DNA of 64,000 bases, taken from contig NC_018581.1 of NCBI RefSeq assembly GCF_000143885.2, positions 4,464,001-4,528,000 of the forward strand. Direction: 5' to 3'. This DNA comes from Gordonia sp. KTR9. Its GTDB lineage: Bacteria; Actinomycetota; Actinomycetes; Mycobacteriales; Mycobacteriaceae. How positions within the stretch are numbered: position 1 is the stretch's first letter; the number at the start of each line of letters is the position of its first letter. Position numbers and translations under genes: made by a program. A model generated the notes under the pieces. The model made no database searches. It saw only the letters and a list, made by a program, of their open reading frames with translations, and was not told where the DNA came from. Of the stretch, positions 56,838 to 63,232 are shown piece by piece.

Positions 56838-58379
<1,542 letters not shown>

Positions 58380-58466
58380 CCCACGCACCCTATCGGGGCC
58401 GGTCATCGACTCCCAACTCACCGCCTCGGCGTGATCGCGGCCACAATCGGGTCGCGCTGCGCGGGT

Positions 58467-58931
58467 TCAGCTCTCGTGCGCGGAGATGACGGCGAGGTCG
58501 TCGGGACGAATCCGGCCGTTGACCCGTGCCGACCGCATCCGGCGGTGCCCGCCGACGACGAACACCGCACCGTGCACGCCACGCGCCTGGAGGTGCCAGG
58601 CGAGCCATTCCGCCTCGTGTCCGTCCTCGCTGACGAGAACCCACCGGGAGTCGGGTCGCGCGGTGCGCAGCGAATCCGGGGTGTCCGGCGTGAGCCGGTC
58701 GAGAACCTCGACGGCGTCGATGGCCAGCGCGCCGAACAGGGCGCCGTCGAGCTGACGGCGCCGGTGGGAGCGGACATCGACGGGGGTGGCGCCGGCGGCG
58801 ACCGCGGACGCGTAGTCCTCGACGCGCAGGGACAGCGGCGCCGACGGGGCCGGGGCGACGGTCGGCGGCGCCACGGCGAACACCGACGCGGCCGACGGGG
58901 CAAGAGCAGAAGAAACAACCGAAGCGGTCAT
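58467..58931 (-). CDS. Cysteine-free rhodanese-like domain protein
   Basis: This 154-residue protein has an Ala/Pro-rich front (1-35) and a rhodanese fold: GATPVDVRSHRRRQLDGALF, WVLVSEDGHEAEWLAWHLQA and GAVFVVGGHRRMR. The active-site loop has Ser in VSEDG where rhodaneses have the catalytic Cys, and the whole protein contains no cysteine. Sulfurtransferase activity by the usual mechanism is therefore unlikely. ATG 58931 follows AGGACTTCAC. A polycysteine leader ORF lies 65 bases upstream, which points to induction when cysteine is scarce. Confidence 0.75.
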   Translation of the reverse strand: MTASVVSSALAPSAASVFAVAPPTVAPAPSAPLSLRVEDYASAVAAGATPVDVRSHRRRQLDGALFGALAIDAVEVLDRLTPDTPDSLRTARPDSRWVLVSEDGHEAEWLAWHLQARGVHGAVFVVGGHRRMRSARVNGRIRPDDLAVISAHES

Positions 58932-58995
58932 GTGAAGTCCTGAAGTGATCGAGATCGAGCGGGGAGCGCGAAGTAGGGCAGCCGCAGACGCGGTA

Positions 58996-59025
58996 CTAGC
59001 CCCGACAACACTCCTGACAGCTCAT
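58996..59025 (-). CDS. Polycysteine leader peptide MSCQECCRG
   Basis: A nine-codon ORF starts at ATG 59025 and ends at TAG 58996-58998. It has three Cys codons, two adjacent. It lies upstream of the rhodanese-like gene on the same strand. In mycobacteria polycysteine upstream ORFs attenuate sulfur-metabolism genes in response to cysteine. Here the peptide size, Cys content and neighbouring gene type all fit that pattern. Confidence 0.7.
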   Translation of the reverse strand: MSCQECCRG

Positions 59026-59089
59026 GATCACGGCGACGAGTATGCCACAGCCCGGCCCCACCGGCCAGACCCCGACTTGACCGACACCG

Positions 59090-60232
59090 TCACACCTCAG
59101 GCGGCTGCCACTGCTGCACGCGTCGCATCTGCGCATTCAGGACGGCGTCGGGCGTCATCCGCAATGCGAGGTCACGGGCCCAGACGGCGGGCGCGGCACG
59201 CATCTGCCCGACCCGCCCGATCATCGACGCCTGCCGTGCGATGCGCTGGGTCCGCGGGCGCCGCAGGCGGTCGTAGGCCCGCAGGGCGTCGTCGAGGCCG
59301 CTGTGGCCCGACCGTCGGAGCAAGGCCACCAGGGTGGCCGCGTCCTCCATCGCCTGGTTGGCCCCTTGGCCCAGATTCGGGGTCATCGCATGCGCGGCGT
59401 CGCCGACGAGAACGCTCCCACATGGCCGGCCTGCTCCCACGAAGGTCGGCAGCGGCGAGGCGAGCTCCTCGATCGGGAGGTAACCGACGGTCGCCGGGTC
59501 GGTGGCGTCGAGCAGTTCGCCGATCGGCCGGTGCCAACCCGAAAACCGTTGCCGCACTTCATCGAGACCACCTTCGGCGCCGTCTCCGGCGTCCGACACC
59601 GAGGCGAACCAGTAGACGTGACCGTCAGCCAGCGGCGCGATCCCGAAGCGCGCTCCGCGACCGGTCGTCTCGCCGGCCGCGTCGACCGCCACCGGGGACG
59701 ACGTGACCGCCCGCCACGCGGCGTATCCACACCTGCGGACGCCCGGGTCCGCGACGATCGCGCCACGCACCCGGCTGCGCAACCCGTCCGCGCCGACGAT
59801 CAGGTCGCACCCGTCGATCTCTGTTCCGTCGGCCAGGCGTACGACACTGTTCCCGGGGGCGATCTCCTCGAACCCGGAACCCGTCCGGATGTCCGCGACA
59901 CCTGCGACGGCGCCGAGCAGGGCCGCGTGGAGGTCGGCACGGCGGACCACGCGCATGTCGGTGAGCGACGCCGGATCGAAGCGACTGAGCCAGCGTCCGT
60001 CCGGTGTCCGCGTTCCGCTTGCCGGCGGGGTCGGCACCGGGGCCTCACCGATCACCGATCGCAGCCCGAGCGAGTCGAGCGCGCGCATTCCGTTTTCGAA
60101 GATGCTCAGTCCCGCGCCCCCGCCCCGAACCTCCGGCGCCCGCTCGACGACCGTGACACGCGCCCCCGTCGACGCCAGACCGGCCGCCGTGCACAGCCCG
60201 GCGATCCCCGCACCCACCACCACGACCTTCAC
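59090..60232 (-). CDS. FAD-dependent aromatic-type monooxygenase
   Basis: This 380-residue flavoprotein monooxygenase (p-hydroxybenzoate hydroxylase class) has the Rossmann start VKVVVVGAGIAGLCTAAGLA, DLIVGADGLRSRVR and the FAD-binding SVLVGDAAHAMTPNLGQGAN. GTG 60232 follows GGAGAAGAGACCC. It is divergent from a TetR gene, with two copies of an 16-base inverted repeat between them. The substrate is unknown. Tetracycline, phenolic or polyketide substrates are possible for this class. Confidence 0.87.
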   Translation of the reverse strand: MKVVVVGAGIAGLCTAAGLASTGARVTVVERAPEVRGGGAGLSIFENGMRALDSLGLRSVIGEAPVPTPPASGTRTPDGRWLSRFDPASLTDMRVVRRADLHAALLGAVAGVADIRTGSGFEEIAPGNSVVRLADGTEIDGCDLIVGADGLRSRVRGAIVADPGVRRCGYAAWRAVTSSPVAVDAAGETTGRGARFGIAPLADGHVYWFASVSDAGDGAEGGLDEVRQRFSGWHRPIGELLDATDPATVGYLPIEELASPLPTFVGAGRPCGSVLVGDAAHAMTPNLGQGANQAMEDAATLVALLRRSGHSGLDDALRAYDRLRRPRTQRIARQASMIGRVGQMRAAPAVWARDLALRMTPDAVLNAQMRRVQQWQPPEV

Positions 60233-60239
60233 GGGTCTC

Positions 60240-60289
60240 TTCTCCACATGGAGAAGAACCATAGCAGATAGACTTCTCCATGTGGAGAA
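60240..60289. promoter_or_regulatory. Paired TetR operators between the monooxygenase and its regulator
   Basis: TTCTCCACATGGAGAA (60240-60255) and TTCTCCATGTGGAGAA (60274-60289) are exact reverse complements of each other, and each is itself nearly palindromic. The second overlaps the TetR start codon. Such paired sites are expected for TetR autoregulation and repression of the divergent gene. Confidence 0.85.
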
Positions 60290-60785
60290 ATCAGCGAGCG
60301 CCTCGACACGCGACGTGCTGCTCGACGCCGGCATCACCCTCATCGGCACGGTGGGGATCCGCCAGGCGTCCGCGCGCGCCGTCGAGGACGCGTCGGGCGT
60401 GCCGCACGGGAGCGTTCGTCACCATTTCGGCGGTCAGAGCGGCTTTCTCGCGGCGCTCGTCGAACACGTCTTTCTCGGCGACCGGGCCGCCGACGGCGAG
60501 TCGACGCACGAGGTGATCGTCCGCTGGCTGGGCGCCGACCGAGTCCGGACCAGGGCCCGCTACGAGCTCATGCTCCTGTCGACTCGTGACGAGGAGCTGC
60601 GACGGGCCATGGTCGGGCACCGCGACCGCTACGTCGACGGGCTCGTCGACGGCGGACTGTCCCGCGGCGAGGCCCGGCAGCTGGTCGCCGCGCTCGACGG
60701 CCTGGTCCTCGACGCACTGCTGCGCAACTCCGACGGCACCGACGCCGACCACGATCCCACTCCCCTGCTCCGCGCGTTCCGCTGA
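60282..60785 (+). CDS. TetR-family regulator of the adjacent monooxygenase
   Basis: This 167-residue protein has a TetR HTH (IRQASARAVEDASGVPHGSV, then RHHFGGQSGFLAALVEHVFL) and a short ligand domain. The GTG at 60282 lies within the operator, so the transcript may be leaderless; the next in-frame GTG (60315) would cut into the HTH domain. It most likely represses itself and the divergent FAD monooxygenase. Confidence 0.82.
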   Translation: MEKSASASTRDVLLDAGITLIGTVGIRQASARAVEDASGVPHGSVRHHFGGQSGFLAALVEHVFLGDRAADGESTHEVIVRWLGADRVRTRARYELMLLSTRDEELRRAMVGHRDRYVDGLVDGGLSRGEARQLVAALDGLVLDALLRNSDGTDADHDPTPLLRAFR

Positions 60786-62428: not shown

Positions 62429-63232
62429 TCACTTTCCGCGACGCGGATTGGCCTTGGCCCGTTCGTGGACCAGGCGCAGACCCTCCAGGGTCAGATGCGG
62501 GTGATGATCGGTGAGCGAACGGCATTCGTCGAACATGAGCGGTGCGAGGTAGCCGGTCGCGACGACGGTCACATCGTCGCCGTCGAATCCGGGGACGGTG
62601 TCGCAGACACGGTCGACCAGGCCGTCCACCTGACCGGCGAAGCCGTAGAGGATGCCCGACTGCAGCGCCTCGACCGTGTTCTTGCCGAGCACGCCGCGCG
62701 GCGGCATGAGCTCGACCTTGCGAACGGTCACCGTGTGCTCGGAGAGGGCCTCGACAGCGAGATTCACCCCGGGCGCGATCGCCCCGCCGAGGAACTCGCC
62801 CGACGCGGACACCGCGTCGACGACCGTTGCCGTGCCGAACGCGACCACGATGCAGGGCCCGCCGAATTCATGATGTGCGGCCAGACAATTGGAGACCCGG
62901 TCGGTGCCGACCTCCTTGGGATTGTCGACCAGGAGCGGAACGCCGGTGCGCACGCCTGGTTCGAGCAGCACGTGCGGACCGTTGCCGAAGTAGCGCGGCA
63001 CCATGACGCGGAGCTCGCGCAGGAGCGACGGCACCGTCGACAACGCGCTCACACCGGTGACCTGGTCGATGTCGTCGCCGAGCATGCCGCGGAACGCCCA
63101 CGCCAGTTCGTCGGCGGTGTAGTGCGGGTCGGTGTGGATTCGCCAGTCACGCACCAGACGTGCGTGATCCCCCACCCCCGCGTACACGCCGAGATGGATG
63201 TTGGTGTTCCCGACGTCGACGGTGAGCAGCAT
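62429..63232 (-). CDS. coaX: Type III pantothenate kinase
   Basis: This 267-residue protein of the ASKHA fold begins MLLTVDVGNTNIHLGVY and has KEVGTDRVSNCLAAHH, IVVAFGTATVVDAVS and GGAIAPGVNLAVEALS. CoaX phosphorylates pantothenate, the first step of CoA synthesis. It follows panD in the same direction, giving a panC-panD-coaX pantothenate/CoA cluster. Abundant CoA demand suits the neighbouring CoA-linked steroid pathway, though linkage is conserved in related bacteria regardless. Confidence 0.95.
   Translation of the reverse strand: MLLTVDVGNTNIHLGVYAGVGDHARLVRDWRIHTDPHYTADELAWAFRGMLGDDIDQVTGVSALSTVPSLLRELRVMVPRYFGNGPHVLLEPGVRTGVPLLVDNPKEVGTDRVSNCLAAHHEFGGPCIVVAFGTATVVDAVSASGEFLGGAIAPGVNLAVEALSEHTVTVRKVELMPPRGVLGKNTVEALQSGILYGFAGQVDGLVDRVCDTVPGFDGDDVTVVATGYLAPLMFDECRSLTDHHPHLTLEGLRLVHERAKANPRRGK

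Follow-up and report, generated by a model that had tools for sequence, protein, structure and literature searches.

Leaderless sORFs that encode polycysteine were reportedly described in M. smegmatis by Canestrari et al. in 2020. As far as the accessible text of the citing papers goes, the polycysteine leaders of M. smegmatis are reported as cysteine-responsive attenuators (Canestrari 2020, as cited in PMC9031893, PMC13236596), the polycysteine sORFs of that study are also cited in PMC9094748, and attenuation by slow Cys decoding is reported for M. smegmatis in a review (PMC9031893). Cys-rich leaders have also been predicted for mycobacterial cys operons, with Rho-dependent attenuation suggested (PMC1262725), and are placed before cysA2, nirA and Rv0485 in mycobacteria (PMC4633059), going by the accessible portions of both papers.

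Here we describe a short Cys-rich leader that precedes a rhodanese-like gene in Gordonia. Like the M. smegmatis polycysteine sORFs, it has contiguous Cys codons and is followed by a sulfur-type gene; it may also, like them, lie at the mRNA 5′ end and is predicted to mask the region of the RBS. Unlike them, it has two contiguous Cys codons plus one, nearly always UGU, its predicted helix is built on the leader’s own start codon, and its target has neither Cys nor the catalytic residue. With the mycobacterial cysA2, nirA and cys-operon leaders it shares Cys-richness and a place ahead of sulfur genes, but it differs from them in its ECC[RQ]G sequence and its coaX-lysS site. The leader should work like the mycobacterial Cys-rich attenuators, and we think it probable that it attenuates translation in response to cysteine, as the polycysteine leaders of mycobacteria do, and that it drives a protein with a rhodanese fold but no catalytic residue. 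Our literature search, which covered titles and abstract openings and had subscription papers outside its scope, returned no description of this leader or of a dioxygenase-rhodanese leader; the cysteine switch is known from mycobacteria, and the target protein and RNA design found here look new. These observations add to the known Cys-rich leaders a distinct one that Gordonia and its relatives conserve, and offer a concrete RNA design, backed by covariation, whereby the leader start codon would pair beside the downstream RBS.

A short Cys-rich leader is conserved across Gordonia

Within the window, the whole 64,000-nucleotide stretch of Gordonia sp. KTR9 DNA that was analysed, the minus strand at 58996-59031 reads GTG ATC ATG AGC TGT CAG GAG TGT TGT CGG GGC TAG, with 64 nt separating it from the rhodanese-like gene. 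The preliminary description had proposed a nine-codon leader at 58996-59025 on this strand; its sequence, ATGAGCTGTCAGGAGTGTTGTCGGGGCTAG, is correct, but its ATG start at 59025 is likely internal. Relatives retain an in-frame GTG ATC two codons upstream (VIKSCQECCQG etc.), and the true leader is therefore probably V(M)IMSCQECCRG*, 11 codons that start from the GTG at 59031.

The rhodanese-like homologue was present in all 37 same-genus genomes of our whole-genome set, the window’s own included, and so was the leader: the pattern [VM][IM]x[SR][CV]xxCCxx followed by a stop lies 63-111 nt upstream of the gene in 37 of 37 loci, which bears out the leader’s conservation among homologues, a check set by the preliminary description. 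Start codons were GTG in 35 of these loci and ATG in 2, and every leader has the contiguous Cys codons. TGT accounts for 109 of the 110 leader Cys codons in Gordonia, cases that are not independent since the 37 leaders are related, as against 32 TGT and 99 TGC in the 43 coding-like ORFs of the window. The reading frame, the stop and the CC pair are kept across leaders while other codons vary; Cys5 is replaced by Val in one Gordonia leader (L037) and is also absent from some Williamsia leaders.

A −10-like element, CATACT (59039-59044, minus strand), stands 7 nt 5′ of the leader GTG. Hexamers with A2 and T6 and 3-4 of 6 matches to TATAAT recur in all 37 loci, at 7 nt before the leader start in 34 of them and at 5-6 nt in the other 3; a strict sigma-70 promoter scan of the leader region found no promoter. 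A weak −10-like hexamer in this position would fit a leaderless transcript, and the leader transcript is perhaps leaderless.

Beyond the whole-genome set, a scan of a contig collection gave 43 loci (Gordonia 37, Williamsia 4, Jongsikchunia 1, Tomitella 1), many of them from the same strains as the 37 genomes; among those with a name, Gordonia lacunae comes nearest to the window (88%). A related leader was found by script in 42, and in the 43rd, from Jongsikchunia, a shorter one (VSKSCQVCR) was recognised by eye and then by a rescan. A family-level search gave matches in 113 of 121 genomes, ordinary paralogues counted in. Among 17 neighbouring-genus loci (L093-L109), the script found a CC leader in 16, and L093 has the Jongsikchunia-type leader. 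No ECC leader was seen in five loci of one other genus (L110-L114); L110 gave no readable gene start, and the other four have related rhodaneses without the leader. In two of these, L111 and L113, a Cys-free rhodanese lies between coaX and lysS, and a frame ...VRVQHWCPRPAGP..., translated by eye, continues into the start of the gene. Eight of the 20 more distant loci (L115-L134) have an ECC leader near the rhodanese; farther upstream, in a scan that left out L126 and L134, 7 of 9 further loci have it ahead of another gene preceding the rhodanese and 2 have none. ECC followed by R or Q recurs across genera, and the L131 leader ends ECCRF.

Order-wide, the exact leader pattern occurs in 4 of 298 genomes, all of the same genus, and misses G004, a same-genus genome with a divergent leader. 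A looser pattern matched 55 of 200 genomes with much background; within that list the strict form GAGTGTTGTCRRRGCT plus stop, picked out by eye, is confined to the same family, where 7 of 30 genomes have it, as against 0 of the 170 others.

The downstream gene encodes a predicted rhodanese fold without a catalytic Cys

The rhodanese-like gene (58467-58931, minus strand), preceded by a Shine-Dalgarno-like AGGA at 58938-58941 on that strand, encodes 154 aa with no Cys, as previously described, and with one internal Met and three Trp. The protein scores 15.3 bits against the Pfam rhodanese model PF00581, below the gathering cut-off of 22.2, and that model matches 14 of 37 same-genus members at E ≤ 0.01. 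An AlphaFold2 model of the protein has a mean pLDDT of 83.2, and a Foldseek search of the PDB with it returned mostly rhodaneses as top matches (best 2hhg, E 8.7e-7, TM 0.72 by target), from which we predict a rhodanese fold.

In alignments with Cys-bearing relatives, Ser101 falls where these have their catalytic Cys, in agreement with the earlier assignment of Ser to the catalytic site. None of the 37 same-genus homologues keeps a catalytic Cys, a possibility that had been raised against that assignment: by pattern, 33 have Ser and 3 Thr, and L037 has Ser by eye. Across 46 compared rhodaneses, 10 have Cys at the catalytic position (the seven dioxygenase-type loci described below, L127, L133 and a paralogue from the same genome as the window); the other 36, which include every one of the 13 Gordonia members in the comparison, have Ser, Thr, Gly or Ala there. 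A rhodanese tree, midpoint-rooted only and without L134, needs two changes of catalytic state, with a single change still possible. The single-domain rhodaneses 2hhg, 3gk5 and TSTD1 (6bev) have a like fold (Foldseek E 8.7e-7, 4.7e-5 and 5.2e-4), but differ from proteins of the present type, which have Ser, Thr, Gly or Ala for the catalytic Cys and of which the window’s falls under the Pfam cut-off. With Ser101 and no Cys anywhere, the protein lacks the catalytic Cys of an active rhodanese or sulfurtransferase; a rhodanese fold of this kind could not carry a persulfide in the usual way, and the sensor or binding protein suggested in the preliminary description is a guess.

The Cys-free ORF of L129, 279 aa long, has a C-terminal rhodanese domain in which Ser occupies the catalytic position. 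Its N-terminal part was taken by eye for a dioxygenase, an assignment that we rejected when Pfam gave no convincing family for the 230 N-terminal residues examined.

Absence of Cys is weak evidence alone and stronger genus-wide

The preliminary description had read the absence of Cys, together with a low Met content, as purging for synthesis under sulfur starvation. The rhodanese has no Cys in 35 of 37 same-genus loci, in 42 of 43 contig-collection loci when residues are counted from where the match begins, and in 117 of the 120 homologues listed out of 143 that passed the threshold, the other 3 having one each. Together the same-genus rhodaneses amount to 5393 residues, of which 2 are Cys (0.037%, as against 0.85% in the window’s ORFs); internal Met makes up 0.46%. 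Other proteins of the same locus have 1.11% (CoaX, 14 sequences), 0.76% (FAD monooxygenase, 9), 0.46% (LysS, 32) or no Cys (PanD, 11).

At the window’s Cys frequency, the chance that a 154-aa protein has no Cys is P = 0.27, and 5 of 43 coding-like ORFs of the window are Cys-free, the rhodanese-like one included; PanD, encoded nearby, is Cys-free in 11 of 11. Conservation of zero Cys, which holds in Gordonia, is looser outside it: in neighbouring genera it was seen in 11 of 17 loci, and 6 have Cys, a count that in three of them (L100-L102) takes in a doubtful upstream start. Since P is 0.27, PanD is also Cys-free and 6 of 17 neighbouring-genus homologues have Cys, Cys-lessness is weak alone; as strong evidence it is ruled out by this composition control and these homologues. 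What fits purging under sulfur starvation is the genus-wide near-absence of Cys, the low Met content and the Cys-poor dioxygenase-like proteins of related leader-bearing operons, 6 of 7 of which have no Cys. Absence of Cys in one protein means little; its absence throughout a genus, in a protein without the catalytic Cys, means more.

The leader start codon is predicted to pair next to the Shine-Dalgarno sequence

Pairing was assessed in an alignment of 34 of the 37 same-genus leaders, L024, L029 and L032 being omitted for their long spacers; all strands named below are on the minus strand. The first two codons of the leader (GTGATC, 59026-59031) form the 5′ strand of a helix, P1, whose 3′ strand GATCAC (58945-58950) lies 3 nt upstream of the Shine-Dalgarno sequence, and 99% of cells are paired. 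An extension of P1 pairs GAGC (59020-59023) with GCTC (58957-58960), 93% paired with no both-side changes. A second helix, P2, joins GGGGC in the last two sense codons (58999-59003) to GCCCT (58975-58979), with both-side changes at 2 of 5 pairs, and encloses a small hairpin CCGC...GCGG (58982-58993) with 96% of cells paired. In P1 itself, 2 of 6 pairs change on both sides: GATCAT stands opposite the start of the two leaders that begin with ATG (GC to AU), and the two GTGATG leaders change CG to GC, although one of these, L033, loses two other P1 pairs. What is conserved, with compensatory changes, is thus the leader, the codons that it uses and the match between its start and the sequence just upstream of the Shine-Dalgarno sequence.

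The full structure (P1, three inner helices and the small hairpin) has 91% of cells paired, compared with 30-54% when slid, and both-side changes at 5 pairs, a number equalled by 1 of 500 shuffles. Its covariation score equals that of the control slid by +1 (0.084 and 0.086), and helix 3 is weak (78% paired). The free RNAalifold consensus of the 34 leaders has P1 and the small hairpin with other inner pairs and a covariation term of just −0.37; the P1 extension and P2 are not in it. The window’s own leader folds into one long hairpin of −37.4 kcal/mol with the Shine-Dalgarno sequence unpaired beside the helix, a predicted fold only mildly better than shuffles (z −1.7, other estimate −1.4; 12 of 200 as good).

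Taken leader by leader, P1 outdoes 95% of shuffles in 18 of the 37 leaders from Gordonia and in 4 of the 27 from other genera, and a contiguous P2 does so in 1 of 37 Gordonia leaders and 7 of 27 others; P2 sequences change among leaders (GTCGAGGC/GCCTCGAC, GTCGGGT/ACCCGGC, GTCGG/CCGAC). Duplex energies in Gordonia stand out weakly from shuffles (mean z −0.63 for P1 and −0.40 for P2). Since just 4 of 27 other leaders pass, we rejected start-codon pairing as a general feature of other genera.

Rfam covariance models, run over 801 bases around the leader, matched nothing at the leader itself with E values up to 5 and gave two weak matches elsewhere. A terminator scan found no terminator-like site in the leader-gene spacer, its sole match being at the rhodanese start codon, which in the window lies inside a small hairpin, ATGACCGCTTCGGTTGT (58915-58931, minus strand), that is also in the fold. 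This hairpin may add to masking of the start site.

Stalling at the first Cys codon is predicted to ease opening of the gene start

We modelled a stalled ribosome by holding its assumed footprint unpaired, which reaches 15 nt upstream and 13 nt downstream of the first base of the A-site codon, and computed the opening energy for −20 to +12 around the rhodanese gene start. Across the 37 same-genus leaders, a stall at the first Cys codon lowers the mean opening energy from 13.3 to 9.6 kcal/mol, a mean drop of 3.7 compared with 1.1 kcal/mol in their own shuffles, and the drop is at least 2 in 33 of 37 compared with 30% of shuffled spacers. A stall at the CC pair lowers it from 13.3 to 12.2, with a drop of at least 2 in 11 of 37; this is no better than shuffles (29%) and lends no support to the Cys8-Cys9 stall as the Gordonia switch, although this pair is better conserved than the first Cys codon. 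The window’s own sequence gives 11.4 kcal/mol unstalled, 7.8 with the first-Cys stall and 13.3 with the CC stall.

Among 27 other-genus leaders, the CC stall gives a drop of at least 2 in 16, compared with 54% of shuffles. When these were grouped post hoc, with L084, L117, L118 and L119 in neither group, the CC stall eased opening by 10.0 kcal/mol in 11 dioxygenase-type or short-spacer loci, compared with 5.0 with shuffled spacers; in 12 Williamsia-type loci it gave 1.2 against 1.8 for shuffled spacers, and the first Cys 2.1 against 1.4. The model thus supports expression when the ribosome is stalled in Gordonia and in the dioxygenase type, but not in the Williamsia type.

In the mechanism that we propose, the sORF, with its three UGU codons at the mRNA 5′ end, would serve the downstream gene as a sensor, acting in cis, of the supply of cysteinyl-tRNA. 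When cysteine is sufficient, the ribosome would leave the leader and GUGAUC (perhaps with GAGC) would pair with GAUCAC (and GCUC), making it difficult to open the RBS. Under cysteine shortage, the ribosome would stall at the first UGU, cover about the first 26 nt and block P1, and the gene would be translated, giving a product that could be made without any cysteine.

Related leaders often occupy one site between coaX and lysS

The next gene downstream on the same strand, 45 nt beyond the rhodanese gene, is lysS (lysine--tRNA ligase, 56838-58421, minus strand), the true start of which may be internal. The leader’s usual upstream neighbour by tblastn synteny lies at 62429-63232 on the minus strand, a gene that we take to be a coaX-type pantothenate kinase; in the window other genes intervene, one of them an FAD-dependent monooxygenase-type gene (59090-60349, minus strand) with a tblastn match in 9 of 37 same-genus loci. 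Of the 37 same-genus loci, 32 have LysS downstream on the same strand and 5 have no LysS match within reach; CoaX was upstream on the same strand in 13, without a match in 23, and downstream on the other strand in one (L022). The corresponding counts for LysS downstream and CoaX upstream were 16 and 15 in the 17 neighbouring-genus loci, and 15 and 16 in 18 distant loci. LysS is not always downstream: in L074 (Williamsia sterculiae) and in a like genome, L098, leader and rhodanese stand together between coaX and lysS in inverted orientation, which suggests that the two are a unit of their own.

In seven loci, an ECC leader precedes a dioxygenase-like gene and a Cys-bearing rhodanese. The two dioxygenase-like genes tested are of cysteine dioxygenase type I (CDO_I, PF05995), and the other five were assigned by likeness. 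Five of the seven loci have both CoaX and LysS, L130 has LysS only and L131 neither. This synteny places the Gordonia gene at the site of the dioxygenase-rhodanese pair of other genera. In other genera of the family (L121, L122, L123, L128, L132) the pair shares with Gordonia the site, an ...ECCR leader and a related rhodanese, whereas Gordonia has no dioxygenase there and its rhodanese no Cys. Judged by site, leader and tree, the Gordonia gene is probably the counterpart of the rhodanese in that operon. Related leaders at one site, with catalytic and Cys-free versions of the target in sister genera, amount to a natural experiment that makes the role of a rhodanese fold without Cys directly testable.

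A probable cysteine-responsive attenuator and its alternatives

The regulatory Cys-rich leader of the preliminary description is backed by its conservation, the fixed TGT codons and the covarying start-codon helix, and that interpretation was likely right in kind and overstated on Cys-lessness. Several observations count against the attenuator reading: the Shine-Dalgarno sequence is unpaired in the window’s own fold, the covariation and duplex scores are weak, the CC stall is of no help in Gordonia, and the Williamsia type gains no advantage. Cys5 is missing from L037 and some Williamsia leaders, and the relatives in L111-L114 have no ECC leader. A cysteine dioxygenase, as in the related operons, would be an odd gene to induce at cysteine shortage, and in the accessible text of a Rhodococcus IGTS8 proteome study two rhodanese-type proteins, not necessarily this homologue, are down, not up, on dibenzothiophene (PMC8557817). 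The seven loci with an ECC leader before a dioxygenase-like gene (2 confirmed as CDO_I, 5 by likeness) and a Cys-bearing rhodanese would also suit a switch of opposite sign, in which passage of the Cys codons when cysteine is plentiful permits expression and the operon deals with an excess of cysteine or sulfide. We consider this unlikely: the eased opening on CC stalling in the 11 dioxygenase-type or short-spacer loci predicts expression when stalled, the M. smegmatis attenuation by slow Cys decoding, as the accessible text of PMC9031893 presents it, speaks against it, and Cys-poor products better match scarcity.

That the element is instead a structured RNA or a Rho-dependent transcription attenuator, with leader translation of little weight, strikes us as distinctly unlikely; nucleotide conservation greater than the peptide requires would suit it, as would the Rho-dependent attenuation proposed for mycobacterial cys leaders in the accessible part of PMC1262725, but Rfam gave no match at the leader, the sole terminator-like site is at the gene’s own start codon and not in the spacer, and frame, stop and CC pair are kept while other codons vary. 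The recurrence of ECC with R or Q across genera might point to a nascent peptide that itself stalls the ribosome, as an arrest peptide or a thiol, metal or redox sensor, with no dependence on tRNA-Cys supply. The residues before ECC vary freely, and a peptide of 11-13 residues would barely enter the exit tunnel, which makes this a very improbable account. Short ORFs and Cys-free proteins are both common (P 0.27), yet a chance ORF before an ordinary degenerate rhodanese is hardly credible, being refuted by conservation in 37 of 37 loci and by the compensatory changes.

Going further than the attenuator reading itself, the ...ECC[RQ]G leader could be a cysteine switch of long standing in the coaX-lysS region, read by the ribosome, whose target in Gordonia changed from a sulfur-transfer operon to a single Cys-purged rhodanese fold that lacks the catalytic residue, is made specifically in cysteine starvation and acts as a regulator or binding protein. 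In this reading the switch might also reach expression of lysyl-tRNA synthetase, lysS being the usual next gene on that strand. We hold this to be rather doubtful, and it is weakened by the Cys in neighbouring-genus homologues and by the inverted modules of L074 and L098.

Further Cys-rich leaders in the same genome

The genome that contains the window has two further Cys-rich leaders before sulfur genes. One, at about 3853.4-3854.5 kb (L149, the same as L115), ends MSMCCC and is followed by a Cys-free cysteine-dioxygenase-family gene and a Cys-bearing rhodanese. The other lies just left of the window, at about 4457.8-4458.9 kb (L135, L141), where a protein of two rhodanese domains stands behind a leader ending ...DFCRVADCCCRTRR, which resembles the mycobacterial cysA2 leader.
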